Shown here in pieces: positions 4,899-63,800 of a stretch of DNA of 64,000 nucleotides. The notes under the pieces are model-generated. The model had not been told where the DNA came from, made no database searches, and worked only from the letters and a program-made list of their open reading frames with translations. Both the position numbers and the translations under genes were made by a program. This DNA comes from Pontederia crassipes (taxonomy: Eukaryota; Streptophyta; Magnoliopsida; Commelinales; Pontederiaceae), in the NCBI GenBank assembly GCA_030549335.1, contig CM060194.1, positions 40,751,171 to 40,815,170 on the forward strand, written 5' to 3'. Position 1 is the first letter of the stretch. Every line of letters begins with the position of its first letter.

Positions 4899-6006
4899 TT
4901 TTTCTCATAAAACCTAACTCCATCTAAGATCATTCTTGATTCATAAAACCTAACGAGAAATTTTAAGGAAAGAAACAAAAATCTCAAGAACTTATATAAC
5001 TTCAAAATATTACATAAAGTCTTGAGATAACAATTATTTATCAAATTAAAAAAATGTAGGTTTTTCCACTTGATCAAATGAGCAAGAGGCTTTGTTATCT
5101 TTCCAACTTTCTTATTTATCAACTTCATATATTTGTTAAGTTTTCTATCATAAAGTACAAACCTTCTTTCGTCATCTTTGTCTTGTTCCTCACTTATCTC
5201 CTTACTTTCTTGTTGCATCTCAAATATACAAATTAATAGAACAAAAATAAGTTTGCATTCTACTTTCTAAATAAGCAAAGTTCGAAGAATCAAAAGTTAG
5301 TGGACAAACTATGACTTGACCTTCGATGAGTAAAAAATTACTTGATATCATAGTTTTAAATATGATTAGGTCTTAAAAATAAAAGCAACATTTCTCCAAT
5401 ACTAATTATTGGATCACAAGATACAAAGAGAGATGGGTGAGTTGACATGTAAATCAATAAAAATAATAATTTCTTTAATTGAACTCGGAATTTCAAAATT
5501 AATTCATAAATCTTAATCACATCATAGCATGTAAAAAAATATAGGGAAGAGAAAGAAAGCAAACATAAAGGCAAAATAGCTTGTTAATGAAGTTAGATCA
5601 CACATTGACTTACATTTTCGTACCAACTTTTCAACCTTGAAATTATCAAAGATTTCACTATCATGCTTCCTTAGATTCAAAAAAGAAAGAAAATAACTAT
5701 TTACACCGCCTTCTTTGTTTCGAGAGACGAGAACCTTGTATCTGAATTATTTCTCCTTTCAAGAGCTAAGGATCAATGCCTTATCACTCTGAATGTTAAC
5801 AACTTATAACAAGAGTACATTAATGACAAATGGTCAATTTATCCTTTACAATTAAAATTTCACACAAAAGTGCAGAAGGGAAAGAAACAATGGATATGTA
5901 AATTTGAGCTTAAAGAAACTTCTTGAATGCACACACGTGTATATTTTTACTTTTTCCTCGAAGATCCCTTTTATGACCTCCAACCTTCTCCACAACCCAA
6001 TATATA

Positions 6007-9624: not shown

Positions 9625-10560
9625 GTTCAAAAAGAAATTAATCTAATTTGTAATTCTCTTTTATTTTTCATTAAATAAAATTATGTGCCGTCTTAATTTC
9701 TCAATTTTTTTTGTGGTGCATAATTTCTCTCGTGTAAAAATCTTAACAATTTTCTTTGTAAACTACATCCTCCTCTCTCCTGACTTCATTTCTCTTTTTC
9801 TTCTAAATCCAAAGAAAACTAAATTTCAGATCAAAATTATTTCCTTTTTAAAATTTCAGAAAATGAAAATTTTGGAACTTAAAACAACGAGTTCCAGAAA
9901 ATAAAAACAAAAAGAAGTTAAACGAAACAAGCCACAATAATATGTTTGATTTTGGCTGGCGATACACATCAAACGTATCGTCGGCCCCCTATTAAATTAA
10001 ATTGTTGTAACATGTCATCTTTGTCATGGCATTCAATTGGGCTCCCTCCGATGGCGACGCATGAATCAGTTGATCTTGACGGCAACCCCCACGTAGACCC
10101 ATCAACGGGCCGGGCCCATTCTTTTTTTTATTTTTTTATTTTTTAATTAAATATATATAACATATCAGTCAAAATTATTCATTTTCGATTAATAGTGAAA
10201 AATATAGTTATATATAAACTTACCATCCAAATTATTCACATTGGTACCCTTCGGTACTAAATCTTGGATCGATGTCCTTGTTGAGTCCGTGTCGATTATG
10301 ATTCAAGTGAGCACGTGAGATCAATTTTAATATTATTTTATAATACTCCCGGCCCATTTTGTAACATTTATCCATTCGAGCAAGATATTATTTATTTTGA
10401 ACTTTCGATTTGCACGAATTAAAAATGTATCTTAATTGATAAAAAAATGTGTAGACACATATAAGTGCATATAAGTTCATAGTTCATGATCGTCATCATA
10501 TTTTGTCTATGCGGAAGTAGCAATCGGTACTCTTAATCTTACATGTCGGGTTGTTTCATA

Positions 10561-10738
10561 TAACAACAACAACAACAAAGCCTTATCCCACTAGGTGAGG
10601 TCGGCTACGTGGATCATACGACGCCACATTGATCAATGTTCATGAGATTCGACAGAATTTTACGTTAGCTGTCGGGGCTTAACACAACCTCCTCCTTTAT
10701 CCGGGCTTGGGATCGGCTATAAAATATAGACGGAGTTA
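10561..10738 (-). mobile_element. SINE-like repeat copy 1, plain insertion with 10-bp target repeat
   Basis: TTGTTTCATA stands at 10551-10560 and 10739-10748, exactly bordering 178 bp that run on the minus strand from AACTCCGTC to a (TTG)n tail. This copy fixes the natural ends of the repeat unit. A middle motif GTCGAAT is only weakly like a Pol III B box, so calling it a SINE rests on size, tail and target repeat. The non-A, TTG-type tail is reminiscent of Au-type plant SINEs. Confidence 0.85.
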
Positions 10739-10748
10739 TTGTTTCATA

Positions 10749-15549: not shown

Positions 15550-18500
15550 CTAAGGAACCATGAGGCCTTCAATTGTGTACAGAAGAGATTCTGCCCAATC
15601 AGTTCTGAATAATATTGTTTGCAATGTCTGCATCACATTATAATCTGGATCCAGTTTACGCTGCCATCCCTGCAGAGGATATTTACAAATTAACCTTCTT
15701 TCTTAAAAGACTACAAACATATGTATCTACTCTATTTGTTATTTCTATCAAATTTAGGGGTCTCAGATTTCTATGGCTGTATTTTATGTCGACTATCTAC
15801 ATCCCGTTTTATTGATCCATTTAGCACAATCAGTGTCAACATCACCATTTTATTGATTGATTTAGCACAATCAGTACTATACGTTATGGTATCTCACACT
15901 TAGGTCTAACCTGATTGTCAAATAAATGCAGCAATTGCTTGACATGTATACAACAACAACAACAACAACAACAAAACCTTATCCCACTAGGTGGGGTCGG
16001 CTACATGGATCATACGACGCCAATTCGTTGATCCATGTTCAAAAGATTCGACAGGGTTTTACGCTGGCTGTCGGGGCCTAACACAACCCTCCTTTATCCG
16101 GGCTTGGGACCGGCTATAAAACATAGGCGGAGTTTTCCATAACGCGAATCATACTTGCGATAAAAATGAAAAAAAAGGTTTTCCATAACAACAGAAATTA
16201 TATGAACCCAAGAATATTATGATTTTTTATCTATAGAAGGATCCTAAGCAAAATCTCTGTAGTTTTCATCTAGAAAATGAAATAAATATTAAAATGTGGG
16301 CCACGTAAAAGGTTCAGAATCAATTTCCCCTATTACTTATTTATAGGGAGGCTCCTCTTAGTGGATTTCGTCCTCTAATTTGGATAAATAATGGCTCTAG
16401 GGAGACATTCAGTTGTGATTGTTTGTTTTGTCCACTGTTGCATGCCTAGAATGGTTGACATGTATACAAGATGTGAAATTTTATGTCAATGACAATGAAG
16501 AGATTTTGTTTTGTTTTTGGGAGAGAATGAGAATTACCTCAAGAACCAGAGTTGTCACCATCACAGTACAAACATTACCATCAATATTGACCATATGTCG
16601 GCGAACTTGCTCTAGAAGCTGGTGCATGCACTCAGCAGGATGGATGGAATCCCCTTCAGTAGTACCCCAAAAATTGAAAGACTTTTCCACTTCCTGTCAT
16701 ATAATGAAAGAGTATCATAAAAACAAATTCAAAACATGTAAAAGGGAATTCAAATCTTACGACACTGACAAAAAATTGTCGAACAAGAGATTTTGTTTGG
16801 GAATGGAAAAGGGGGTAATTGATAATTCAAATATATATATGGATAAATTGAAAGAAAATCTAAACTTTAATATTTGTTGTAGACAAGGTTATCAAGATCG
16901 CTTTCCAAGGTAGGATCGTAAGGGACTTCGAGGATCGTAGGATCCTACCCTATGAATAAAAAGCATTTTTTAATATAAAATAATTAAAGTAATATATTTA
17001 TTCAAAAATGTTATCATTATTTATAAGTTAATTAAACATTGACCATTAATACTTTATTCATATTTTCAAGTCTAATAGATATTTTTATATCATGTGAAAG
17101 ACAGTATGATATATTCTTAAAAACACTAAAATAATAATATATAATATTTAATCTTAATGAACTATAATATTTATCAAAATGCAATATAATTCTTAGTATA
17201 CGTGCAATTATAAAAATTAATTTTGACGTAAGATAATATAGCATTAGATTCATAACATAACATTAAATTATTAGAAGATATTAAAATTCATGAAAGTGAG
17301 ACTAACATAAAAAAATATATATAAATAAAATAGTTACATAAAATTTTCTCAAGGACTTTTATGTTTACTTGTATTTTTTTTATTCGAATAAATAAATTTG
17401 TACCAATATGGTAGGACCATAAGATCCTACCAATCTTAAGACCCAACTATAAATCCGGTATAAATCCTACATTTAAGATCCACCAAGTAGGATCGGAATC
17501 GTTTTTTGTCCAGAGGATTGTAAGATCATAAGATCTTACTATCTGGATCAGGATCCTAACAACCATGCTTGCAAACCTAAATTTTTTTATCAGACAAAAT
17601 AAACTATTTTTGTGAGGTGGACAAAAACAAATAACTTTCAATTTTTTAATCAAATTTGGCATAAAGCTTTTCTCATATTTAGCCTCGTAATAGTTTTTTA
17701 GTTAAATTATTCAGTTCAACGCAGTAAATTAATATGGATAGATGGACACTACCCAGAATATATCATTTCTACCTAAAACATAGATAAGTGAAAATAAAAA
17801 TAAAGTTCAAGTTTTAATAAAAAAACACTTATTTCGAGCATGTTTGATCATTCACAATAACATATTTTCGACCTTTACCTAAAACGTTGTTACTTGAACT
17901 TGTTTTCTATATCATGCCCTTGAGAATAATAATCATTATGATACATAAACGATACAAAATTCTATTTCTTTATTCAATAATATCTTGATATTTTTTCCAT
18001 TACAAGTAATATTTGTCTATATACCATCCACTTATACATATGAATTGATTACATCCAATGTCGTAAACTTATTACAAAATTTTTTACAATCCTAAATATA
18101 AGAAAATTTTAAAAAGTAGGTGAATTGCAGTCCAATAAAAGTAAGTTTAAGCTAAATTCATAAAAGTTTGGAGGTTGCCAAAATGTTGTACAACAAAGAA
18201 GTTAAGGCTATATAAGCAAGAAAACTTCAAAGTTTGGGGATGCAATTTACCTCATATCTAAATGGTTAAACTTTAAACAAAAAAAAAACGGTTAAATTCT
18301 TGCACTATGCTGCTTTTTGGCCTCACAGAACAGTGATCCCTCATATATGTAACTAGCAGTACACAAGTTTTGGCTGCTTTCCCAAGGGCTGAAGTGCAAC
18401 AAAGTTATGAATCAAACTCTTTCTCACAAACAAGAACTTCAAAACAAAATTTTCAACAAATTGTTTTGTGCTGGCATTATGTATGTTGGTTGACATCCAT

Positions 18501-21500
18501 GAGATTCCTTCTCAAAAAAAAAAAGACATCCATGAGATTAAAAAATAATTTGATCCACAGATTTTATTTTTGAGGCTGTCGATCCACAAATTTATAGCTT
18601 ATAAAATCAAGGCACGCAAAAGGAGAAAGAACATGATGGTATTATATGAAATATTCTATTAAACAAACAAATCTAATAAGACAGAAAAACAAAAGAGATA
18701 CAAAAGATATAAAACATAACAGTACAAAGAACACTGTAACATAAAATGCTTGATCATTATCTGGTTAAGGTTGCAACCACAAATAGCCATATGCTATAGT
18801 TCATTAAGGCAGAGAATAAGAAATATGTAAACTAGAAAAACGAGGTAAATTGAGTCCCACAGTTAAGAATGAACTAATGTAGTTATATGAACAATGCACT
18901 AATAACATAATGGACAACAATATGACATGCAGAAAACTGAAAATTTGCGTACAGAGAATCTCATGAGAAACTATATGAGCAATGTTGAATCTTGTGTAAG
19001 AAAAATATATATTGGAAAATTCTTCACCATAAAGACAACATAAAGTAGTCTCATTTGTGTTCTTGTGAGCCATTTGGTACAAAAGAAATAATTGTATATC
19101 TAGAGGGGAGAGTTTCTATGTGGAAAATTCTTTATTTAGCACGTAATTGCACAAAGCAGTTGAAGGAATGGGAAAATAAACTGTGATATCTCAATTTAGC
19201 AAGAACACCATTTTTTTGATAATAATGGATGGTTGCATCCTTTTATCACTCAAGAAAACAAAAGATTGAAAGTTATTAACTCAATCATTTTACTTTGAAG
19301 TCCTACTATTTTTAATCGATTATTTATCATTGCATTTTACTTTTTCCATCTGCCAGATATTCTGTTTGGATTGATAGCAAAATGCGTCTTCACACTGATC
19401 CAATGTTAATATTGGAGTACTTCCTATGGAGGACAAAATCAGAATATGCTATATCCAATCATTATGATCTCCATTGTGTCTGGGATGAAGTTATCCAGAA
19501 CAAGCGCTTGAATAAGTATAATCATACAGCTATTGATGAACAGTTTAAATTCTATCAGTCTGACGGTTTGGTCAAATTTAACGAGTCAGATCCAAGCTCC
19601 CCTCTTCCAAGTTGTCTGTGTCAACTCGATTCGCTGCTGAATTCCTACTATCTAATTGTTAGATCGGTAATTTCATCACATTCTTATCTTTCTGTTGCAG
19701 ATGTTCCGGAAGGTTCATTCATTGTGCGTGCCCACACTCCTATGTCAAATTTGTTCTCATGTCTCTGGTTTAATGAAGTAAACCGTTTCACCTCACGTGA
19801 TCAGCTGAGTTTTGCATACACTTTCTTGAAGCTGAAAAGAATGAATCCTGGAAAACCATTTTACTTCAACATGTTCAAGGTAAAATATGTTATTATTAAA
19901 ATTGCAAGTGAAAATCCAATAGTTGTATTTCATTATAGGAGAATGCCATATCATCAAACTTGACTAATTGAAGTAATTACTATTCATGTAAATTCCGGAT
20001 GAGCATCCAATAAGGTTACTTGCAGTAACGAATGAGTTTTCTTCCTTCTTTAAAAAAAAAGAAAAAGAATAAGTTTTCTTTTGAGGGTATGCAGTAAAGA
20101 ATGAGTTAACATATACTATGTAGACAATGGTAGCATATGTTAACTACTTGAGAACACTGCATAGTTCTATTTGTCCTTAATATGACTTTGGTTTTGGTTT
20201 AAAATCATTGAGAAAACAGTCAATTTTGTGTGAGTTAGATTTTGCTTGTGGAATATATCAACCATTGTCTTAGGATTTCATGTTTCAGTAAGCAATTTTA
20301 GCAGTCGTCTGCGTATGATTTATAAATTCATATGTTATTCCTCATGGCAACTCCGCCTATGTTTTATAGCCGGTCCCAAGCCCGGATAAAGGAGGAGGGT
20401 TGTGTTAGGCTCCGACAGCCAGCGTAAAATCCTGTCGAATCTCATAAACATGGATCAACGAATTGGCATCGTAAGATCCATGTAGCCGACCCCACCTAGT
20501 GGGATAAGGCTTTGTTGTTGTTGTTGTATTTATCATTGCATTTGATAAAGAAACTTTCTTTTTTGAGGGGTAAAAAGGATGACCAGCAGGGATGTATCTC
20601 AGAAGATCAAGGCTTCTTTTATACTACCGCATGCTAGTATTCCAGACATAAGAAGACCTACTATTTCTCCTCAAAAAAAGACCTTTTCCAAAATGAGACC
20701 ATTCTTCTTTTTAATGAACTCCAATACCTTTTTATTTATCAGAAATCCTTGTTTCTGAAGCCCATTCAATATGGTGCACATTTCCTTATAATCATGTAAT
20801 TCTAAAGCGAAATTGCTTCCACTTCATTAATAAAACATAAAATGGCATAAAGCCTTACAGAATATCAAATGGAAACAAGAATAAGGAAGACACAGGACAC
20901 AGCTCAAAAAAAACTAATCAAAATTATTCCAGTCTCAGATTAAACCCTTCACATATTGTATGATGTTGTCAGGGGTAGCACAGTTCCTGCCTAAAGATGA
21001 TGACATTTCTCTGGAGCCACATGGCCCAAAGATAAGCAAGGGGCACTTCACGCGTCTTCCCGGACATGTATGTACACATCTTCTGGGGGCCGCTAGCTCT
21101 AAAATATGCCCAGAACGCTTCATCAGATCTGGTATCAAGCCACAGCCGGGGTATCGATGACCAGACGTCACCGGCGACCCAGCACTCAGAGTACATGCAA
21201 GGTGTCCTCAATTCCATGCCACACAAGCCACAGCTAACATCATCATTGCGGCCGTTTCCTTCTCAGCAACCAAACTAAAATTTTAACTTTTAGTGGGGCG
21301 ACTGCCAAATCTGATATTGAGAGATGTGTAGACATTGCGCACTTGACCCTATCACTGCACCACTTCCAGCCATCTCTGGCACCATCTAAAGGGTGCAAAT
21401 TGCTAAGGGGCTCGAGCAGGGTCGCAAGCCCATCAATGTGTTGATTAGACAGGGGGGAGCCAAAAGTTGGCAATCACAAACCCCAGGTGTTATGCCCTTC

Positions 21501-24500
21501 CCCATACAAATAATCCTTTACCGGGCCCACTCATCAATAGCCACTGCTGCCAGGGAGGAAACGCTCTAGCAAGCGACCCGATGGGCAGCCACTTACCAGA
21601 ACTCAGCCAGAGCAGAAGCTCGCCATAGAGAACCACCGACAGGAGGATATAATTCCTGCCATACTTTGCCAAAAGAAGATGATCCAGTGGACATCTGGTA
21701 TCGCAAGCCCCAAGATAGATGTCTTCCATGGCAGTAAAAAGGATAGTAATCCAAAGGCCCTGATACAGTGATACGGGCCCATGATACGCACCAACCATTT
21801 GGACAGCAGAACTGTGCTCATTCATCTGAGATCAAGAACCCAGAGTCTGCCCTCAGCAATTGGCTGTCAGATCTCGCTTCATGATTCAAGGCCAGGTTGT
21901 ATTTCTAGAAGAACCCTAAGCGCAGCGAGCCAATTCTCTTTCCCACCTTCCCTGGGGTGTGGACCGCCCTGTGCGAGGAGCTTGGAGACCCAGCCAACCA
22001 GCCTATGTTTCACCCTTTTGACCACCCGATTCCAATTTCAAGAGGGGATGCGATCATCTGACAATGGCAAAACCAAGTACCTGATGGGGAGAGATCCAGC
22101 AGGAGTTTGAAGTTCGTCTAAGCAGCGTCTCTGTTCATCATTGTCCATGCCAAAGGGTTCTCAAGGCCAGAGTTTGATGAAGAAACTAAGGTGCCCCAGG
22201 TGACAAATTATATGTCATAGTTTCTGATGCTCATTTTATATTTTGAGGATAACAAAACCTAGTTTTGTATGAACTTACATATCATCATTTTTTAAAAGAA
22301 AAATACTAGAAATTCTGAGGGAACATGATACAAACTGAAAATACAATTACATATATGACTGAAAATAAAAATAGGATAACTATTATAGTAGTAAAAGTGC
22401 AAGAATCTTAAACACCATTACTATTATCTCCATAAGTCCGTATGGAGTGGACCAAGCTCCAATTACTTAATTGGTAAACACATTTCAAAGGCTATCCTAA
22501 ATGTAAAACCCATGCATGTATTTATAACATGCAAATGTAATTACAATAATTGTAACTGAACTATAAATAAAACTACCCACTACTTTTTTAAGTACCCCAC
22601 TAACTAATACAAAGTCGTGGTATCTTATCACCACAACCCTCCTAAAATTTTGCCTTGTCCTCGAGATGGAGAAAAGAAAATTAGTAATAATATTCTGCAG
22701 ATGCAGTTGAAGCCTCCGAACTAACTCCATCTTTGGACCAAGAGAGAGATTTTTGAACCAGTATGAACTTTCGGCTTTTCTTCTTATGAAATGAGCTTTC
22801 CCTTGTGATGTGTAAAGGTGATTTCTGCTAAATGAATGCTGCTTCTTTGTGCTTTACTATTAGGATCTTTGAGGTTATGATACTAATTGATACAAACTGA
22901 AAATACAACTACATATATGACTGAAAATAAAAATAGGATAACTATTACTAGTACTAAAAGTGCAAGAATTTTAAAGACAATTACTACTAATAACTTGTCA
23001 ATTCGAGATGAAAAATCTTCATAAGTCCGTATGGAGTGGACCAAACTCCAATTACATAACTGATCAACACATTTTCCAAGGCTATGCTAAATGTAAAACC
23101 CATGCATGTATTTATAACATGCAAAGGTAATTACAATAACTGTAACTAAACTACAAATAAAACTACCCACTACTTTTTTAACTACCCCACCAACTAATAC
23201 AAAATAGTGGTATCTTATCAAAACATAAGAACAATGAATGCACTGCAATACAATATAATATAATACAATAAACAGAAAGTACCATATTCAAACATCCACA
23301 AACATATCATAGGAGTTCCACAAAAAATATATTACCTCAATAAAGGCCTTTGGTTCTGGACAATTCTGTTGTTTTGATAACCTTAATGTGCATTCGGCAG
23401 CTCTACGACCATCTCGTGTGGCAACAGCCTTGAAGAAGTCAAGAAGATTTACCCGGTCTGAGTTGGAAAGCTCTGCTGTCATGCCTACGTCAAGGAAAAC
23501 AACATGAGGCTTTGACTTGAAGAACCCTTTCTTTAAGTGCCTAGTTTGAGTTCGGACAAGAATATTGCCAGGATGCATGTCTGCATGGATAAAATTGTCC
23601 ACCTGAACCATGATAATCCATTAGAACAGCCATCATGATATGAACTATTAATCATTCTTAATAAGAACATGCTAGACAGCCACAAGAATGTCAACAAATG
23701 GTTCAAAGTACGTTATGACGGGGACTTTCATGAAGATGGCCTTTCACTGCACTCTAAATGAATAAATGTTGTCTTCTTTTTAGTCTTACAAACACTTAGA
23801 AACAATTATATCAGAGCATAAACTACGAAATAATGATTAGTCAAGTCTGAACCCAAGCCAAAAGGAAGTTTGTTGATGCAAATTTCGTGGTCTTCTACAG
23901 GCTATTTAATAAGTAGAAGGTAGCATTTCTTCATATTCCTTTATCCTTGTATACCATCATTGTAAAGTGCAGATATATTAGCTCATATTTGTTGTCAATT
24001 ATCGAAGATTAGAACAGGCATCGCAACTAAAAAATTAAAATAATAAGCAACACAGAACATACAAAAAGAAAACAGAGGTGAAATTGAAAATGAGAAATAA
24101 TAACAATTAAATGTTCCATAAATCATGTGGCAGTTGTATTAAAAACGTTTGGAAAGGCAAGACAGGAATCATACTAGGAGCATCTTCAACAATGCATGAG
24201 TTCCAATGTGAGCAAGAGCACTTTTAAGTCGGCCATGCCCTTGAAGCTCATCAACATAATGAGAAACACTTTCCCCATCCTCATAAGTCTCCACCAAAAC
24301 AGCAGGATGGACAAGTGGATAGAGGGGTTTTGGAAAAGATACATCCTTCCAACTGCGAAAATTATAAATGAAACGGCTCAAATGTGCAGCTTCTCTTGCA
24401 AGATCAACTTGAGACATCATGAAAACCGCAAACTGTTGTACACTCTCATCCAACCGAAGCCACCTCAGTGTAGGAATAAAGTTCGAAATTTTGGCAACCA

Positions 24501-27944: not shown

Positions 27945-28393
27945 TTCAAGAGAACGCTTACTTGGCCAGTAAACACCACCAGCGAACAAACGCTGCATTT
28001 TCGAAGTTAAAAGTGGAGTTACTTACAATCGTAACGGCTGTGCTGGAAAACTATAAGTGCACTTGATGCCAGACAGCCCTCGTCCTGTGACCATCGCTTG
28101 TTCGAACAGCAGAACCATCGAGCAACATATTCATTGTTTTTGTATTATTCCATGAGATGCAAAACAACAGCCGCAGCTAATATTCTTGAAGCTCTGAGCC
28201 CACTTCCACGGGGAACTCTTGTCCTGAGTTTGCCAATACTCTAGCCAATAGCATCAGTTACCAGTAGGGCTGAATTTACAAACCAGAAATGGTCAGGTTC
28301 ATCAAATGGTGCAGAAATTGAATTTCGTTCTTCAATATATACATGGTTGCTGGTACGATCAACAATGAAAAGACCACAATCTTTTGTTGTCTC
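27945..28393 (-). pseudogene. FKGP: FKGP copy B, GHMP-kinase segment (decayed)
   Basis: Minus-strand remains of the fucokinase half of L-fucokinase/GDP-L-fucose pyrophosphorylase: IETTKDCGLFIVD, VYIEERNSISAPFDEPD, a SALLVT segment, then a degraded GSGLGTSSILAAA ATP-binding loop. Frames shift repeatedly, so it cannot encode the enzyme. It is clearly homologous to 39108-39600 (copy A), and both end at the same exon border (TGGCCAAGTAAG). The copia fossil splits it from 31825 onward. Confidence 0.8.
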
Positions 28394-28398
28394 TATCC

Positions 28399-31824: not shown

Positions 31825-32478
31825 TAGTTCCAACCGTAAAAAATCCCTTCCATCTCTGCAAGATCCAAGGAGGTATGTCAGTGCAACCATGGATGGAATC
31901 AACGTGCACCGATAACTCCACACTTGCACTTTTCGTTTGGAAACATGTCAATACCTTTCTTAAGGCTTGGAAGAGCTTTCAGTGTCCCACATTTACATGA
32001 AGGATACATGTCAAGTAAGGAAAAAAATTCCCTATGAACAAAACCAGATTAATTTATCGAAGCAATGCACGCTTAGCAAACTACAAGTGTAGCATACTGT
32101 GGACCATACATTGGACTATTTTTCCATGGTGATGGTCCATGTGTTCGCTACACATGTAAATGGTCACACATGCATTAGCTCCCTTAGGATAATGTGATCA
32201 ATGAGCTAAAACCTTTGCTGAAAATATGAACCAACATACGAAACATATGTTTTTTTATGTTCCTGGTTGCCAGGATTCCATTATGAACTTTGGAAAATAT
32301 ATTAACAAAAGTAGCACAACAGAATATAAGGGAAAAAACATTTCCTATACCTTTGATTCCATACTTTACTTTTTTTGCAGTTTCATTAGCCACTGCATCA
32401 CAAATTTTCTGACTCCATCATGCACTGCATCACAAACATTTTGACAAGCTCTAAGAAGATGAAATTGCACATGATATA
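31825..32478 (-). pseudogene. FKGP: FKGP copy B, linker segment (decayed)
   Basis: 31825-32160 is homologous to 39620-39958 of copy A. Further up, the minus strand reads AVANETAKKVKYGIK, matching the AVAEETASAVRYGFRE region of Arabidopsis FKGP as I recall it. Just before the LTR element comes a remnant of the LLRAC segment. It is interrupted on one side by the copia fossil and on the other by the LTR-type element at 32479. Confidence 0.7.
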
Positions 32479-38858: not shown

Positions 38859-39107
38859 AACATGGCATTCTTTTCTTTACAGCCCATTCTGCTACATGTT
38901 TATAGATTTGTCAATGGCGATGAAACCATTAATTAAGTGAACCTAATACCTTATAAGTCCTCGCTAAAACATACCACATAAGTTAAAATTCGTAAAATTG
39001 CATGACAATCAATACCAATACAAGACGTAGTTTTCATTTTCTATCATAAGACTGAAATCAATATATCCAAGCAAAATTTCAGTGTCAGCTAAAGCAAGAA
39101 AACACTT

Positions 39108-39958
39108 ACTTGGCCAGTAACCACCACCAGAAAATGCTGCTCTCGTTTTTCCACTCTCTTTCGAAGTTACCAGTGGAGTTACTTGCAATTGTAATGGTTG
39201 TTCTGGAAAACTACATGTGCACTTGATGCCAGGATATAATCCTCCAATCTGATCATGCCACCCTCCTCATGTGCCCATCACTTGTTCTAACTTCTAACAC
39301 CAGAACCATCCGAGCAACATTTTCATTGCTTACATCTTCTTCCATGAGGCAAAAGGTCATTCACAACAGCTGCAGCTAATATGCTTGAAGTTCCGAGCCC
39401 ACTTCCAAGGTGAACTCTTGCCCCTGTATTAATCTGTTAGCCTGAGTCCGCTAATCCTTTATGGCCAATAACACCAGTTACCAGTAGGGTGATTTTACTA
39501 ACTGGAATCGGTCCTGTTAATCAAATGGTGCAGAAATTGAATTCAATTCTTCAATATATACATGGTTGTCGGTATCATCAACAATCAAAATACCACAATC
39601 TTTTGTTGTCTCTATTGTAGTTCCGTTCCAACTGGAAGAGATGTTTCCAGGGTAATTGCCATATTCAAAACACATCCTGGTCTCTCCAAGCTCCAAGGAG
39701 GTGTGCACCGGTGACTCTACACTTGCACTTTTCGCTTGGAAACAGGTTGCATCAGTATCATTCTTAAGACTTGATGAGCTTTCAGTCCCACCTTTATATG
39801 AAGGATACATGACATGTAAGAAAAAAAATCCGCTGTGAATGAAACCAGAATAATTTAAGGAAACAATGCACGTTTAGCAAACTACAAGTGTAACATACAG
39901 TGGACTATACATCAGACTAAGTTGCCACGGTGATGGTCCATGTGTGAGCTACATTGTT
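39108..39958 (-). pseudogene. FKGP: FKGP copy A, fucokinase segment (decayed)
   Basis: The minus strand reads TTIETTKDCGILIVDD, VYIEELNSISAPFD and RVHLGSGLGTSSILAAAVVN (the GHMP ATP loop), then GGWHDQIGGLYPGIK. All match the GHMP kinase half of FKGP. A small deletion removes most of the RVDFVGGWSDTPP motif and frames shift several times, so it is not functional. It lies immediately 3' of the PPR stop codon. It is the tandem partner of copy B and shows the site without the copia insertion. Confidence 0.85.
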
Positions 39959-39969
39959 AGAAATGTTTT

Positions 39970-42900
39970 CTAGAAACTTGAAGCCTCACATTTTAATCCC
40001 TGCAGTAAAATTGCTGACATGAGAATAGAGAATTAAAAGAAAGAAATACAACAAAACAACAACAACAACAAAGCCTTATCCCACTAGGTGGGGTCGGCTA
40101 CATGGATCATACGACGTCAATATATTCGTTGATCCATGTTCATAAGATTCGACAGGATTTTATGCTGGCTGTCGGGGCCTAACACAACCCTCCTCCTTTA
40201 TCCGGGCTTGGGACCGGCTATAAATATAGGCGGAGTTTTCCCTAAAATAATACATTCATGAAAATCTAGATCACAAGTTTTATCAATGAGTTTGGATGAT
40301 ACATAACTAAAAACGTGATATTCACAAATGAGTTTTTCCAGGAAAAAATGTACTCACGAATGGGCAGTGATGGTCCATGTCCATGACACACATTCGACAG
40401 GAACGGCAATGGTGTGCCCTTTGTGGCTTTGGCTTTTTGCAATAGGTGCAATATGTATAGTTGTCTAGACCATATTTTCCTACAATTGGATAGCTACCCC
40501 ATTGTATGTGCGATGGTGCCCCAGGGCATGTGAAGGATGCCAAGCAGAAGGTAGAGATGGTAATGGCTGACAAAATAAATGTTACAATGCAGTGGAAAAT
40601 ACCACAGATGTAGCCAATTGTGAAAACAATAGGGTAAACTGCCCAAACACCAGCACATATCACAAAAAGCATGAATAGAAGAAGAAGTGTTACAAAGAAC
40701 CGGTCCCGTATGTGCCTCCACTTAGAAAAGCATGCGCTATCAGGCTTTCTCAAGCTTTTCCCTTTATCTGTTATCGCACCACACCATCGCTGGTTGTCCT
40801 TTCCCATTTCAAAAAATTTTAATTTCCTTTTCATCCATCTAGGATAGGAAAACAAACCAAAATTCATATAAAGAAGTACCGATAATTAGCATAAAAAAGA
40901 ATTTCTCAAATAAAAAATTATATGGATCATAACTGTGTATATTAGATAATTCAACCAATAACATAAATTTTTCATTTATAGTCCTCACAAAACATATATA
41001 TAACTAATAAATGACAACCACAACCTCGCTGGTCATCCTTTTTCTCTAAAAAAAGATGTGAGCGTCCTTTGGATGATTGGGCCAGTTGTAGCTTCCTACC
41101 GTGGGGTTTGAGTGACAAAGGGTATGTGATAGGTTTTCCAAACAACTGCTTTGTTGCTATTGTCAGATTCCCTGCCGAAGTAACGAATTATAAGATAAAC
41201 AAATGTAAATAACAAAAGGAGAAAGTCTCCAGATTCTCATCATTTCAAGCACTTTAATGACTGATAAAACGAAATGGAAATATAAAGACAAATAATGTAA
41301 ATAAATGATCCTAAGCTTTACAAAGATTGATAACATGATAATACTTATCATTTTTGTTTCTTTAGGCAAATCAAATTTGCGACACAAAATATAACTACTG
41401 CATTACTTAAATTCTTCACGGCCATGTATAAATTGATGATAAATGGGATTTGTTATTAGATTTGGTAGCTTATAAGCTACAAGATAATCATCATCTTTGA
41501 TGGTTGACAATAAGATTAAAGGATCCTCGAAATATTGATGTATCAAGTGACCACGAACCTGCAAAAGGGTTGCATGTCAACAACATGAAAGATTAAGAAC
41601 ATTGCACAAAGGATTAAAAGATTAAAAGAAAGAAATATAATATTGATAATGGGCACTTCAATGTTGGCAGCATCAACAAAGAATTAATACAATTTCTGTT
41701 GAAATTTACCATGACTTGCTTTTCTCTTGAATGCACTTCAACCATCAGCGCTTTTACAGATTCTTCCATGCCCAGAGAACTATATGCTTGAATCATAGTT
41801 GAAAATGTGACGTGATCAGGATTGCATTTTTTCTCCTTCATGAGCAAGAACATCTCTTCCATTATAATTACCTCTCCAGCCTGCCCATAAGCATTGATCA
41901 CACTGTTGAAGAATGCAGTGTCCAAGACCACATCTGTATTTTCTGTCTGTCTGATAATTGCAGGAACTTTCTCAAGAAGCCCAGCTTTACCATATGCACT
42001 TACAAGTGAGCAATAAGTGATACAATTAGGCTTAATCCCCTGTATTTTCATCAAGCGGAAAAAGTATTCCATCTTCTCTATGTTCCCCGCTCTGCCAAAA
42101 CAATCTATTATTATGTTGAAAGTTATTGTTGTAGGAGGAAAAAATCTTTTCTTCATAAAGCTCAAGACAAAACCCATTTTCTCATACATGGCAGCTTTAC
42201 CATATGACTTAATTAAGATATTGAAGGTCTGAAGATCCGGTTCAATGCCCATAAGCTGAAACTTACTATACCATTTCTCCATTTCATTAAACTTGCCACT
42301 ATTTCCATATGCCCAGACAATTGAATTCATTGTAAAAATGTCAGGCATACATTTCCCACTTTCAATCATGGTCGACAGACAATCCTCCATTTCTTCGAGC
42401 ATCCCAGCTTTACCATACCCATTAATTATTGTGTTGTACGTAACAGTATTGCATTCTATTCCTAGATAAGACATCTCCTCGAGCAGAAACGGAATCTGAT
42501 CAAAGCGACGCAATCTGCTGCAACAATTGATGAGTATGGTATAAGTGTGTTCATCTGGCTTGCAGTCAGAGATGGTTTTCATCTCATCAATAGTATGCAT
42601 CGCTGCATCTAACAGGCCGCTGTGGCCATAGGCACCAACAAGCGATGTGTAGACAACCAATGTTGGTTTAAGCCCATCGGAAAGCATCATTCGGAAGAGT
42701 GAAGTCGCATGCTCCGGCTGCCTACACTTCCCAAGCATCGTCAACAGTCGGGCGTAAGTTTGAGACTTAGGTTGATACCATCGTTGCCTGCGTAGAAGCC
42801 CAAATATCTGGAGCACAAGAATCCACCATCAGTTTATCACGCATGAGAAACGTTTGTCAGAATGCCAAAGGTGGCTCAAAAGCAAGCGAGAGATCCCTGT

Positions 42901-51854: not shown

Positions 51855-52281
51855 GAAAGATGAGAAAGTGGAAAAATGAGAAAAAAAGGAGCGGGATAGT
51901 GAAATTTTAATTATATTAACAAAATACTCGTTACATTATATTACTTTTCATTTATCGACGGTCGGAACCATAAAAAATTATGATGGAAATTATCGTTAAT
52001 TATATTAATAAAATATTTCTTATATTATATTATTTTATATTTACCGACGATCAGGATCGTTGAAAATTGCGACGGATAGATACCCGTCGAAAATTTCGAC
52101 ATCGTCGAAAAATAAAATAATAATATAAAAAATTACATAATTTATTATTTTGATTTTTGACGATTTTGACCGTCGAAAATTCCGACGGATAACTATCCGT
52201 CGGCTATCCATCGCAAATTGCGACGAATTTCTATTCGTCGAAAATGACCCATCGGAAAATCCTAATTTTCTTGTAGTGCCA

Positions 52282-57880: not shown

Positions 57881-60800
57881 TTTTTTTTTTAAAAAAAAAG
57901 AAGAGAGATCATCTATTGATAAGGAGGCCAAAACGGTTCTGATACAAAATATCGGAGAGATCCCGCGGGGGATTAGACTTCCAAAAAAGGTCGTGAATAG
58001 AAGTTCGATCAAAATTTGCCAAAAAATCAGCTGCTCGGTTAGCTTCCCAGAAACAGTGAGGAAGGCGCCATTAAGTAAAATGGTTAAGCAAAGTCTTAAT
58101 ATCAGTTACAATAGTCTTCACTCGCCAAGGAATAGCAAAATGCCCATTGACAATCTGCACCAGGTTAGCAGAATCGGATTTGATCATAATAGAAGGCAAC
58201 TCCAAGCAGAGACAACGTTTGACAACAATGAGCACCCCCCAAGCTTCAAGCTCGAGAATTGAATCAGCATATCTCTTAACAGCACCTGCAAAAAGGCAAC
58301 GACCAGAGTGAGTACGGATAATGAAACCTGCTCCCCCCGCCAAGACAGCTCCCGTAAAGGAACCGTCCGTGTTAACCTTAACATAAGACTCTAGGGGGCT
58401 ACCACCAGACCCAGGTAGGGTTTTGGGGGCAAGTTGCCTCAGGAACATGGATTCTAGCATAATCGTTATACTGCGCTAAAACTTTCTCCCAGACCACAAG
58501 CTGGGTTACCCGGATGGAACGAAAATGCGCATCATTCTGACACTGCCATATGCCCCAGAAAGCAAAGGAAAACAAAGAAAGCAGACGGGTTTTGGAGTGC
58601 CTATCCAGCGAAGGACCTTCAATGAGCCAATTACCCTCAGGTCAAGAGTTCATAAAGTCGAACGTAATGCGCAATTTAGCTTGAAAAATTTCCCAAAAAT
58701 GAATTGAAAAAGAGCAAGAAGAAAAAATAAATGCATCACTGTTTCAAGGGCGTTACCGCAAAAAACACAAGTGGGGTTTAAGTTTTGATTAAAGCGAGTA
58801 ATATAATCTAAAGTAGGTAGTTTAGTATGCAAAGGTTTCCACAAAAACGCATGGACCTTTGGCAATGTCAGAATATTCCACATTTTAGACTAGGCGGGCT
58901 GTCCAACAGTAGGAGTCAGCAAGGTTAGCCGAGTAAGATAACGATAAACAGATTTAGCATGAGCAACACCATGAGTGTCAGCCTCCCATATCCACATGTC
59001 ATCATCGGCGTGAGCAGGAGTATAAATGGTGGAGATAAGTGAAGCAAGATGAGGGCCAAAAAATTGGTAAAGAAGTTGATCATTCCACAGATTGTTAAGA
59101 ATAAGCATGTCAACAGTCAAACCATCAAGCGAGATATCCATGTTAATGAATGTAGGCTTATGAGTGAGTGGGATATTAAAAATCCAGGGATTCAAGAGAA
59201 TATAGGTACTAGTTCCACTACTGACAAGTTTCTTCATGCCCAGGCGAGTGGAAAGAAGGGATTCACAAATAAGTTTCCAAGCCCCGGAGTGATTGTCGTG
59301 ATAAGAAGTGACATAGGGGTGGATGGTACCATACTTGTTTCTAATTAGGTCTGACCATATTGACTCCTAGTTGTTTAGCATGTTCATGATCCGTTTGATT
59401 AACAGGGAGGGTCTGACGAGCTTAAGGTTTCGAAGTCCAAGACCACCAGCGTAACACGAGAGCAAAATAGTATTCCAATTGACCATATGCAAACCACTAT
59501 TGTCCTTATTGCCATTCCAAAGAAAACTGTGAGAGAAGTGCTCGATAGTCTCAAGGACATTATTGGAAAGGTAGGTAGAGCCGAGGGCATGAATTGGGAC
59601 CGAGTTGACAACATAATTGATAAGCGTGAATTTGTCAGCCTGATTCAACAGTTTACTTTTCCATCCGGAGATCTTAGAAGAGATGCATTCAGTAATTCAA
59701 TTTTGATATTTGGCGGGGATGAATTTGTATGAAATGGGGACTCCGAGGTAAGAGAAGGGGAAAAGATCAGGTTTGAAGTTGAGGATGTTTAAGATGATTT
59801 GCTTCCTCCGAGCAGAGAAAGCAGGAGGAAAGAAGATTTCTGATTTGTCGGGGTTGATCCATTGATTAGTTAAGCGTCCATAAATGTGAAGGGTTTTCTG
59901 CAAATTTGTGCAGTTAGATTTAGTAGCCGATATGGTGATTAAGAGGTCACAAGCAAAAAAGGAGATGGCTAAGGGAAAAGGAGCGAATCGAAAAGGGGGT
60001 GATCTGATTAATTGCAACAGCCTATTTCATGAGGGCTGAAAAAATCTGGAAAATAGGGGTAAAAAGGTAGGGGGAGAGGGGATCACCTTGTCTAATCCCC
60101 CGGTGACTCCTAAAGTCGGGAGAGTCAATACCATTAATGTAACATGAGAATGTAGAAGATTGAACACAAGTGGACACTCAGTTGACGAATTGAGCAGAAA
60201 AGTTCATAATGGTGAGTACTTTGGTGATAGCTTCCCAAAAGACCGTGTCAAAGGCCTTATTGATATCGGCTTTGATAATGATATGCTTTTTACGATCTTT
60301 AGTGAGGGAGTGGGCAATCTCCTGGGCAATAAGGATATTGTCCTGAATGGAGCGATTGGGGATAAAAGATGATTGCTCTCTGTCGACAAGCGAGGCAAGG
60401 ACAGGTTTAGGTCTAGTGGCGATGATTTTAGAAATGGTCCGATAAAGAACATTACAGACTGTTATACGGCGATAATCAGAAACATGTCTGGGATGAGACT
60501 ACTTGGGAATGAAAATAAGACGTGTTTTGGTAAGTTCAGTAGGAGGTGATTAGTGGCAAAGAACGATAGAATGACCTGAGTAATATCATGCCCAATAATG
60601 TCCCAATGTTCTTTGTAAAACTCAATAGTGAAACCATCAACTCCAGGAGCGCGCCTAGGTGTCATACTCCAAAGAGTGTCCTTGACCTCCTTGGGCGTAA
60701 TAGTATTAATGAGGTCATTGGCCAGGGATGAGGGCAAGGAAGGAAAAGGGGGTTAGTAATTACTCTCCAGAGGCGGGAGGTCAAACTGCTGCCAAAGTGT

Positions 60801-63800
60801 ATGATAATGAGTAACAAAAAGATTACGAATGTGGTCTTCGTTAGTGATCTTGATGTCATTGAAATTGTACAAGGTGGTAATGAGGTTAGAACGGTGTTTA
60901 ACCATAGTAGCAGTATGAAAGAAGGAAGTGTTTTGATCGTCATGCTTTAACCAGTTAATACGTGACTTACTCCACCACCTAATGGTGATCTGTCGAAGCA
61001 GGGCAGCATGCCTGTGATAAGCAGATCATAAATTGTTCAGTTCATTATCAGACAGACCAGTGGCAGAATCCTTAGTCTCAAGGTTAGAGATAAGAAGCTC
61101 AGCTTCCGGCAGTCTATGCTCTAAGCTGCCTAAGACATTATGATTTCAAAGAAGAGTTTTATGTTTAATATTGCAAAGGGCTTGGTGAATAGTTCTACCA
61201 GGGTGTTTGAAAATCCATTCACGATTCACAATGTTAGGGACTCTGGGTAATCGAACAAAAAATGCTCGTACTTGAACCCCCCGGGCCGATGCCGTCAGGA
61301 ATTAGTAGTAAGAAGCAATGGATTATGATCGGACACACAACGAGTCAGAGTCGACAAGGACATGTTGGAGAAATTGGTAAGCCAGCGATGAGTGCAAAGT
61401 GCACGATCAAGGCGACAGAGAATGCGGGCATGTCCACGGTGATTGTTACACCAGGTGAACTGGTTGCCGGCGAGGGGGAGGTCAGTGAGGCCTTGATTGA
61501 GTATGAAGGTAGCTAAGTTATGGATAGATTGCGTAGAATGAAAGGGAGCCCCTCCTTGCTTATCAGCCAGAGAAAGCGTCGAGTTAAAATCACCCATAAC
61601 TAACCAAGGGATATTATCAAGGGCGAGGGAAGAAAGATCCTGCCAGAGCAGGTCACAGGAGGCTGGCATACAACTAGCGTAAATAGTAGAAAGTAAAAAT
61701 GAGAAATGATTAATAGTAACGATAGCATGCATGACATGAGGAGAAACAAGGAGCGAGGTCACCTGAGCACGCTGTTGATTCCAGGCGACGATGATTCCAC
61801 CAGAAGTGCCCGTGCCACTCTGAGTTATAACAGACCAACTATGCCCTAAGCGGTGAATTATTACATCAACTGATTTTAAAATTACATGTGATTCAATTAA
61901 AATAAGAAGATCGGGAGAATGGTTCCTAAGGAGGTCACGAAACGATCTCGGACTTTCGCGCGGGCCGCACCCCTACAGTTCCAGGCAATGATCCGCATCT
62001 AGGTCAGAGGTGGTGTCACGTCCTGCACAAGAGGAGCCACACACGAGTCTAGATTTTTGAGCGAGGAGGAGATCTTACCTTTCTTCTTAGAGGAAGATGG
62101 AGGTCGCCTCGATGAGAGGGCCGGCGGAGCAGCAGAGCGTGGGGGCAGCTGATGCCGGAGATGCTCCTTTTTGCGACCATCAACAACCGGTAGGAGTAGA
62201 TCAATGTCTAGATGTTCCTCGAGGTCCAAGAAACAACCAGGGGCAGCTTCGCGAGGATCCTGGCCCGAGGCAGCCAAGGCATCACCCGCGGAAGAGGCAG
62301 CGAGCACTCCAGACACAGAGATGACAAGGGATTCATGAGTGATATTAAGGGGGCGAAGAGGGGAGAAGTGAGTGGGGGAAGAGGGGGAGAAGTGAGTGGG
62401 GGAGGAAGGTAAGTTTCGAGTGGGGTGTCGGGGGGATCATACCACGTGTAGGGCTCAGGGAGCGACGATCCGTGGGCGCGAGATCACGCTCATTGATGGA
62501 GCGAGGGATACGAGCAGGCATGGACATGGTAGCGGGAGGGGACACACAATGTGTAGGGCTCAAGGAGAAGCAATCCGTGGGAGCGAGATCCTGATCGTTG
62601 ATAGTGCGAGGGATACGAGGAGGTGGAGACGTGCCATTGGGTGCAGACACAGCAGGCAGAGCGACACATCCCAAGATGCCCTCATCCCCACACGTGCCTT
62701 GCAGGATCGTCAGATTGACATCCGACCGTTGGCTACTAATGACCAGATCTGACCATTGGAAGGATTGATCAGTATTATCCAATGGCTAGTTGAGATCAAA
62801 CGTGTTGGGATTCGAGTTAGGGTTTCTCCCGTGAGTCATGGCCGGCACTGGGCGAGCATGGGGAGGGCTGACGACGACAGATTGGCGGATGTTCAACCAG
62901 GGACCAAAGAGAAGAATGTCGCCGATCGAAGAGCTCTCCGACCGGGAAGGACGTTGTTCGTGATGATGACCTGTGATACCACAACGAAAGCAGAACAAGG
63001 GTAGATTCTCGTAAATAATGCGTTGAAAGAACTTACCGCCGTCGGCAATCCAAAGGCCCTGCTTGATCGGCTTACCCAGTTCAAGCTCAATACATACACG
63101 GATCTTACAAGCGACATCCGAAAGATCAAGCCGAAGGGGAGATCCAATGGAAGTAGCTATCCGAAGGATGGAGGAGGAGTTTTGTAGTTCGAAGGGCAAA
63201 CCTTTGAATTGAATCCATGTTGGAGTAATGGTAATAACCTCATCTTCTGGCTGAAAGAATGGACGAGGCTGGGAGAGACAAAGAACATGCCCCTCGATCT
63301 CCCAGGAACCACTGGTAAGAGCCTGCAATCGGTCATCAAAATTAGAAAAGAAGAAAAGGAGATAAAAGTTACCAATGTTTTCATTTTTGAGAGAACCCTT
63401 CAACTGCCACAATGTCGGGAGCAACAGGAGAAGACGATCGACAATAGCCTGGTCTCCGACGAAGCGCCCAAGGAGGTGGCTGCCAAGATCCTGCTGCCGC
63501 TGCTGAATCTCTTCAGGAGGAATGGTCACAATTTTCGAAATCGACTCTTTGAGTGATCGCAACTACCGCGGAGAAATCGTGTGCGAGACATTAGAGGGAG
63601 CATGTCTGGCAACAATGTTAGCCCACGAAGAGTGGGGGGAGGGTTTGAGGAGTTCAGGGAAGAAGGTGCATGAGGTTTGGAGATTTCAGTAGTGGAGGTC
63701 TTAGAGTGAAAAGGGGGAAACTTTGTAATGGAGGGGGATTAGGAATGAGCGGAGGAAGATCAGAAGGTGGAAGAGGCGCTCGGATAGATCGGGAAAACGA

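Follow-up and report, generated by a model that had tools for sequence, protein, structure and literature searches.

Host-gene fragments probably copied along with a twister-headed, RTE-type retroposon in a 64-kb window of plant DNA

In the window (the whole stretch of DNA that was analysed, 64 kb), the segment 40032-41637 on the minus strand, here called unit D, was found to be a single insertion with exact 17-bp target repeats at both outer edges. Its interior was found to contain 1,383 bp of gene fragments followed by a 189-nt tail, all in one sense and with the introns retained. The best explanation, to which we give a probability of about 0.8, is a twister-headed RTE-type retroposon that would have taken host pre-mRNA along, the join lying at the ribozyme cut site.

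In minus-strand order (41637 to 40032), unit D was found to contain the 17-bp repeat, two exons with an intron, a DHHC exon and intron sequence, followed by the presence of the tail and the second 17-bp repeat (Table 1). The repeat was TATTTCTTTCTTTTAAT in the minus-strand reading, at 41637-41621 and at 40048-40032. The earlier note on this DNA, made from the letters alone, had placed all parts of the unit in one sense, and the tail and the exons were indeed found to read minus throughout. Its statement that the exons keep their splice sites was likewise confirmed by the presence of AG before and GT after all three exons, and the exons 41558-41420 and 41171-41100 were found to share one open frame. 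The DHHC palmitoyltransferase exon that it had named was recovered by Pfam (PF01529, E 9.2e-13). The first two exons probably belong to a plant ubiquitin-specific protease (UBP) of the UBP8-11 type, although searches of Pfam, NCBIfam and PDB did not match them to any UBP, and the PDB lists for these exons were found to contain unrelated proteins only (E 0.099 or worse). The host had been described as a PPR gene, in agreement with which the exon beside unit D was found to match PF13041 (E 2.5e-62); this exon ends at the GT donor 41709-41708, and the insert starts 71 nt past that donor.

Table 1. Positions of the features of the four tail copies in the window.
Unit	Feature	Position	Strand	Basis
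D	5′ copy of 17-bp target-site repeat	41621-41637	-	exact match to 40032-40048
D	first exon of probable UBP	41420-41558	-	AG/GT borders, frame open into next exon
D	second exon of probable UBP, preceding intron retained	41100-41171	-	AG/GT borders, phase agrees
D	DHHC palmitoyltransferase exon	40358-40838	-	PF01529 E 9.2e-13; AG/GT borders, open frame
D	type-P1 twister ribozyme	40184-40242	-	RF03160, 59.8 bits, whole-window E 5.9e-11, full model
D	predicted ribozyme cut	between 40238 and 40237	-	RF03160 placement
D	tail module, predicted cut site to (TTG)n end	40049-40237	-	profile of four copies
D	3′ copy of 17-bp target-site repeat	40032-40048	-	exact match to 41621-41637
C	5′ copy of 17-bp target-site repeat	19321-19337	+	exact match to 20527-20543
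C	TOD1_MUCI70 exon	19357-19610	+	PF04765 E 5.8e-66, predicted intron left out; AG/GT borders
C	next TOD1_MUCI70 exon, preceding intron retained	19701-19879	+	PF04765 match with predicted intron left out
C	type-P1 twister ribozyme	20344-20403	+	RF03160, 62.5 bits, whole-window E 9.7e-12
C	predicted ribozyme cut	between 20348 and 20349	+	RF03160 placement
C	tail module	20349-20526	+	BLAST and four-copy profile
C	3′ copy of 17-bp target-site repeat	20527-20543	+	exact match to 19321-19337
B	5′ copy of 15-bp target-site repeat	16455-16469	-	exact match to 15939-15953
B	cargo, 320 bp, no gene recognised	16135-16454	-	no second copy in window
B	type-P1 twister, core damaged	16080-16139	-	RF03160, 45.2 bits, whole-window E 8.7e-7; 28/35 conserved positions
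B	predicted ribozyme cut	between 16135 and 16134	-	RF03160 placement
B	tail module	15954-16134	-	BLAST and four-copy profile
B	3′ copy of 15-bp target-site repeat	15939-15953	-	exact match to 16455-16469
A	5′ copy of 10-bp repeat, one base (T) before module	10739-10748	-	exact match to 10551-10560
A	type-P1 twister, three changed core sites	10684-10742	-	RF03160, 50.9 bits, whole-window E 2.1e-8; 29/35 conserved positions
A	cargo-free tail module	10562-10737	-	BLAST and four-copy profile
A	3′ copy of 10-bp repeat	10551-10560	-	exact match to 10739-10748

At the 5′ border of unit D (41604-41637, minus), the target repeat was found to end in CTTTTAAT, followed immediately by the same eight bases again, and this doubling is a possible trace of 5′-end joining. 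About 35 nt of the cargo between the UBP and DHHC exons (41024-41058, minus) were found to recur 14 nt behind unit C, at 20557-20591 (plus), with a score of 42, where 500 shuffles reached no more than 29 (E 5e-4). The flank downstream of unit D (39095-39953) was found to resemble 27947-28396 and 31904-32152, 8-11 kb off, at 72% and 83% identity; these lookalike stretches are probably duplicated gene remnants, and one ORF there had no Pfam match. The reading frames of the window were of the PPR, ABC1-kinase and LINE type, and the window looks plant-like. A direct duplication of about 300 bp with 85% identity (22326-22630 and 22888-23220) was found adjoining the ABC1-kinase gene, and LINE remains were found at 59370-63562 (minus), with an endonuclease (PF03372, E 5.6e-11) and a DUF4283/zinc-knuckle frame (E 2.8e-20); this LINE is presumably of the L1 type and not of the RTE type that the tail needs.

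Unit C (19321-20543) was found to contain 17-bp repeats enclosing two TOD1_MUCI70 exons (PF04765) with the intron kept, followed by the presence of a tail as in unit D; the Pfam score of TOD1_MUCI70 rose from 214.6 to 223.4 bits once the predicted intron was left out. Unit B and copy A were absent from the earlier note. Unit B (15939-16469) was found to contain 15-bp repeats around 320 bp of cargo and the tail, and the first three letters of its repeat, TTG, could belong to the tail. Copy A (10562-10737) was found to be a cargo-free tail with a 10-bp repeat adjoining. No second copy of the cargo of units B, C and D was found within the 64-kb window, so that the donors do not lie inside it.

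Cargo inside repeats of 15-17 bp was found in three of the four tail copies (B, 15 nt; C and D, 17 nt each), and in copy A the repeat was present at the tail's own 5′ end; the sample, four tail copies in one 64-kb window, is small. The earlier note had proposed a recurrent mechanism, and this is strengthened by cargo in 3/4 copies, one unit more than it had listed. The opposing pattern that it had named, every tail copy with a target repeat at its own 5′ end, was found to hold for one of the four copies in the window and not to hold for the other three. Random anchors on the two strands were checked for an exact match 150-1800 bp upstream; 18/6000 had one of at least 15 nt and 11/6000 one of at least 17 nt. 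The rarity of the latter agrees with the earlier reading of the exact 17-bp repeats of unit D as the ends of one retrotransposition-type insertion whose target repeats lie far upstream of the tail. Under a nested, independent history, the repeats would have arisen by chance, and the cargo would already have been present locally or would have arrived in insertions of its own. Short target repeats alone can mislead, and copy A has only 10 bp, but the three cargo units share one layout, each with a long anchored repeat of a length that random anchors seldom reach, and such a history is considered highly improbable. DNA transposons with captured genes (Pack-MULE, CACTA) are marked by terminal inverted repeats and a short target-site duplication. 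This class was rejected, as no terminal inverted repeats were found and the target repeats were 15-17 nt; the best 12-nt match between the ends was 9/12 in B, 8/12 in C and 7/12 in D, that of B lying between CAA-type repeats.

The tail was found by BLAST in four strong copies in the window, and a profile built from these four found four and no more, covering model positions 1-181 of 182 in C, B and D and 1-180 in A. The copies were found to be 91-96% identical pairwise and 94-98% identical to their own consensus (n=4). The module was 176-189 nt long and without a coding frame, and TTG repeats were found to close all four copies. The earlier note had called this tail a SINE, and the label could not be kept in the ordinary sense: the best matches to Pol III boxes A and B in the tail were no better than those in 200 shuffles each, the head was a twister and the end was (TTG)n. 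A search for tRNA found none, the Rfam scans giving a twister there and no tRNA. A tRNA-type SINE was therefore ruled out, its boxes not rising above shuffles and a tRNA-related head being absent. The 3′ end presumably resembles the ends of plant RTE elements, and on its sequence the tail is best read as a non-autonomous element of RTE type that has a twister at its head and no visible promoter. RTE LINEs of flowering plants are described as ending in (TTG)n or (TTGATG)n (PMC3747384), and an end of this kind was found in 4/4 copies. An Au-type SINE was also ruled out, because Au-like SINEs are described in the same source as ending in T tracts (PMC3747384) and the tail ends in (TTG)n. Searches of viral_contigs and genome_contigs, two collections not meant for plants, gave 0 matches to the tail pattern.

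In a sensitive Rfam scan, made on the tail of unit D and then on the whole window, the type-P1 twister RF03160 was found to head all four copies. Model positions 1-68 of 68 were matched in each copy, with whole-window E values from 9.7e-12 to 8.7e-7 and with scores of 62.5 (C), 59.8 (D), 50.9 (A) and 45.2 bits (B), all below the Rfam gathering score of 67.2; the default Rfam scan of the window listed no twister, and both points count against the best explanation. The conserved capital-letter positions of the model were present at 31/35 in C and D, 29/35 in A and 28/35 in B. The four differences in C and D were confined to the nucleotide preceding the cut and to the variable-length hairpin, and changes in the core, which also count against the best explanation, were found only in A and B. 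Folding hardly predicted the stems of the pseudoknotted core, whether the ribozyme had its natural upstream sequence or random flanks, and the folds favour neither a template jump nor read-through. The tail RNA would probably free its own front end by this built-in twister. Twisters are described as cutting at a U-A step with another A next, the U not being conserved; as stem P1 is dispensable, the piece removed can be as short as one nucleotide (PMC5408937). A 2020 review states, giving the work as in preparation, that RTE-superfamily retrotransposons have truncated but active twisters conserved at their 5′ ends (PMC7761336). The ribozyme core gave 0 matches in genome_contigs and a match to one contig, L001, in viral_contigs, neither collection being meant for plants; L001 contains its own, unrelated twister (70.5 bits), which serves as a positive control for the core search. 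Within 2.8 kb, L001 was found to contain this twister, a weaker second twister (32.1 bits) and a twister-sister match of 39.2 bits, above its gathering score, the match coordinates being 2812-2874, 2499-2553 and 5163-5234. One other row was present in the sensitive whole-window scan, a weak match to the MIR9481 precursor at 52073-52201 (plus; 30.3 bits, gathering score 130, E 0.025), in a stretch with other repeats.

The twister is predicted to cut directly before AACTCC, the U-A step being placed on the consensus UAA of the Rfam model. The mean pairwise identity of the four copies was found to be 0.35, 0.27 and 0.33 in the three 8-column blocks before AACTCC, followed by 0.94 in the first 8 columns from AACTCC on and 1.00 in the next 4. 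In copy A, the target repeat was found to stop one base (T) short of AACTCC. From this jump in identity and from the repeat of copy A, it follows that all four copies start where the ribozyme-cut RNA is predicted to end, a 5′ boundary that had been missed before. An exception was found in B and D, which agree at 7/8 bases just before the predicted cut; a random join would not predict such agreement, which counts against the best explanation. In unit B, the 12 nt GTTATGGAAAAC were found twice, 46 nt apart, with the second copy reaching three bases into the module, which would speak for a template jump, and a 12-nt junction repeat of this kind was found at 157/20000 random points. The AAC may have acted as microhomology, with copying then restarted on the same template, although this is suggestive only. 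A looser 17-nt comparison of the junctions was equalled in 3% of shuffles for B, 46% for C and 36% for D, and no significant junction repeat was found in C and D by this comparison, which likewise counts against the best explanation.

The common start might alternatively be a strong stop in the 3′ region of a longer RTE LINE, a hot spot of 5′ truncation or template switching to which the ribozyme is incidental. In favour of such a stop, a fungal LINE is described as switching templates at preferred sites near hairpins (PMC2104539). The stop must, however, coincide with the cut site of a full-length ribozyme match in 4/4 copies, and twisters have been reported at the 5′ ends of RTE elements (PMC7761336); this alternative is considered unlikely. 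It is similarly improbable that the units are filler DNA, that is, a break patched with copied genomic DNA (gene fragments with their introns) plus a retroposon end. Filler DNA keeps introns and can join unrelated genes, as in unit D, but it predicts neither target repeats of 15-17 bp nor an outer border that falls precisely where the (TTG)n stretch stops, and it does not predict the inner joins at the ribozyme cut site that were seen in 3/3 units. This route was reportedly proposed for plant gene movement by Wicker and colleagues in 2010. The gene pieces were found in the sense of the tail in 3/3 cases, with introns and splice sites kept, whereas filler DNA expects either orientation; the common sense of three pieces is, taken alone, weak evidence. 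The target repeats around the whole, the LINE-type end, the common sense and the joins at an RNA-processing site argue together for RNA and target-primed reverse transcription, and these same features point away from filler DNA, chance nesting and DNA transposons. As the introns were kept, nuclear pre-mRNA is indicated as the source of the cargo.

In the preferred reading, that of a twister-headed retroposon copied together with host pre-mRNA, the element would begin at its 5′ end with a twister, continue through a hairpin-rich middle and close with an RTE-type (TTG)n 3′ end, no promoter being visible. Its RNA would most likely arise within host-gene transcripts and would be cut free by the twister between N and AACUCC, after which the proteins of an RTE-clade LINE would recognise the 3′ end and insert the copy by target-primed reverse transcription. 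In unit D, the copy would have taken in unspliced host pre-mRNA attached immediately 5′ of the cut site. We infer the RTE helper, the activity of the ribozyme, the read-through transcription and the joining step from the features described above. The joining could have occurred by read-through: a source copy lying within an intron would have failed to cut itself free, leaving the upstream pre-mRNA attached, which would be a 5′ transduction; slightly less than even odds are given to this route. In its favour, the element shows no promoter and its RNA must come from host transcripts anyway. The same odds are given to template jumping, in which the reverse transcriptase, on reaching the 5′ end left by the ribozyme, would have moved over to another nuclear pre-mRNA, and a small share is left for re-ligation of the cut RNA ends or for mixtures. 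On either of the two main routes, the two genes in unit D call for two joining events in a row or for a chimeric source.

Gene fragments that keep their introns are usually explained in plants by DNA transposons or repair. The units described here suggest an RNA route in plants by which introns are kept and unrelated genes are fused, a little-described kind of gene-part shuffling. A wider idea, held tentatively and with less than even confidence, is a ribozyme-gated gene capture, in which a promoterless plant element would rely on host-gene transcription and its twister would decide what moves. If this is true, a clean twister cut would let the element alone move, and failure of the cut or a jump of the reverse transcriptase would move unspliced stretches of host genes as well. 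With cargo in 3/4 copies in this one 64-kb window, exons would then be moved routinely in plants, with introns kept, with a bias in sense and with genes strung together. The RNA route suggested by the units would also give plant twister ribozymes a concrete job, and the link between ribozyme failure and gene capture would be directly testable. The signature, a ribozyme-cut join inside long target repeats, is sharp and can therefore be searched for in any plant genome. In a review of plant gene capture of May 2026, 5′ transduction is given as unreported in plants (PMC13317346). Among the literature matches listed, there was no plant case in which a ribozyme, or a SINE or LINE tail, marks the edge of captured gene sequence, and none in which gene fragments meet the cut site of a ribozyme.

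Twister heads of RTE elements, LINE-made chimeras and SINEs with RTE ends are already known apart from one another. The RTE elements with 5′ twisters (PMC7761336) are described as carrying the ribozyme at the very 5′ end, like the tail, whose 3′ end is of the RTE type by its (TTG)n. Compared with those elements, the copies found here are 176-189 nt, without a coding frame, and 3/4 contain sequence upstream of the ribozyme. The retrozymes of plants and animals (PMC4918200, PMC7761336) are likewise described as small and self-cleaving, with no evident promoter, and are thought to depend on read-through. They contain hammerheads and form circular RNAs, whereas a single twister per copy and RTE-type ends were found here. 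The tobacco TS SINE is, like the tail, a short element, sharing its RTE-type 3′ end with RTE-1_STu and containing TTG repeats (PMC3747384). It is described with a tRNA-related head and Pol III boxes (PMC3747384), in contrast to the twister head and the boxes not above shuffles found here. The Sadhu retroposons of Arabidopsis (PMC2848041, 2010) are non-LTR elements of a plant as well, and both template switching and a possible transduction of DNA from upstream were noted for them; they are poly(A)-tailed, no ribozyme is mentioned in the sections cited, and the added sequence was not identified there as gene exons. In LINE-1 5′ transductions with mRNAs (PMC13174262) and in SVA 5′ transduction (PMC13317346), upstream gene sequence is likewise described inside the target repeats, mostly in sense; in human LINE-1 copies with mRNA or lncRNA sequence, the sense orientation was reported in 15/17 cases (PMC13174262). 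In the LINE-1 examples described, the exons are spliced, and six of them end at a splice donor (PMC13174262), whereas introns and a ribozyme-cut join are present here. The bipartite and tripartite MINE and WEIRD chimeras of Magnaporthe (PMC2104539), with mammalian cases cited there, are also described as fused transcript copies inside one pair of target repeats, with the 3′ part derived from a LINE or SINE as in the present units, and one fungal LINE chimera contained three RNAs inside 14-bp repeats. Those chimeras, in the account given there, fuse non-coding RNA with retrotransposons (PMC2104539), whereas the units found here contain unspliced pieces of protein genes, with ribozyme-cut joins, in a plant.
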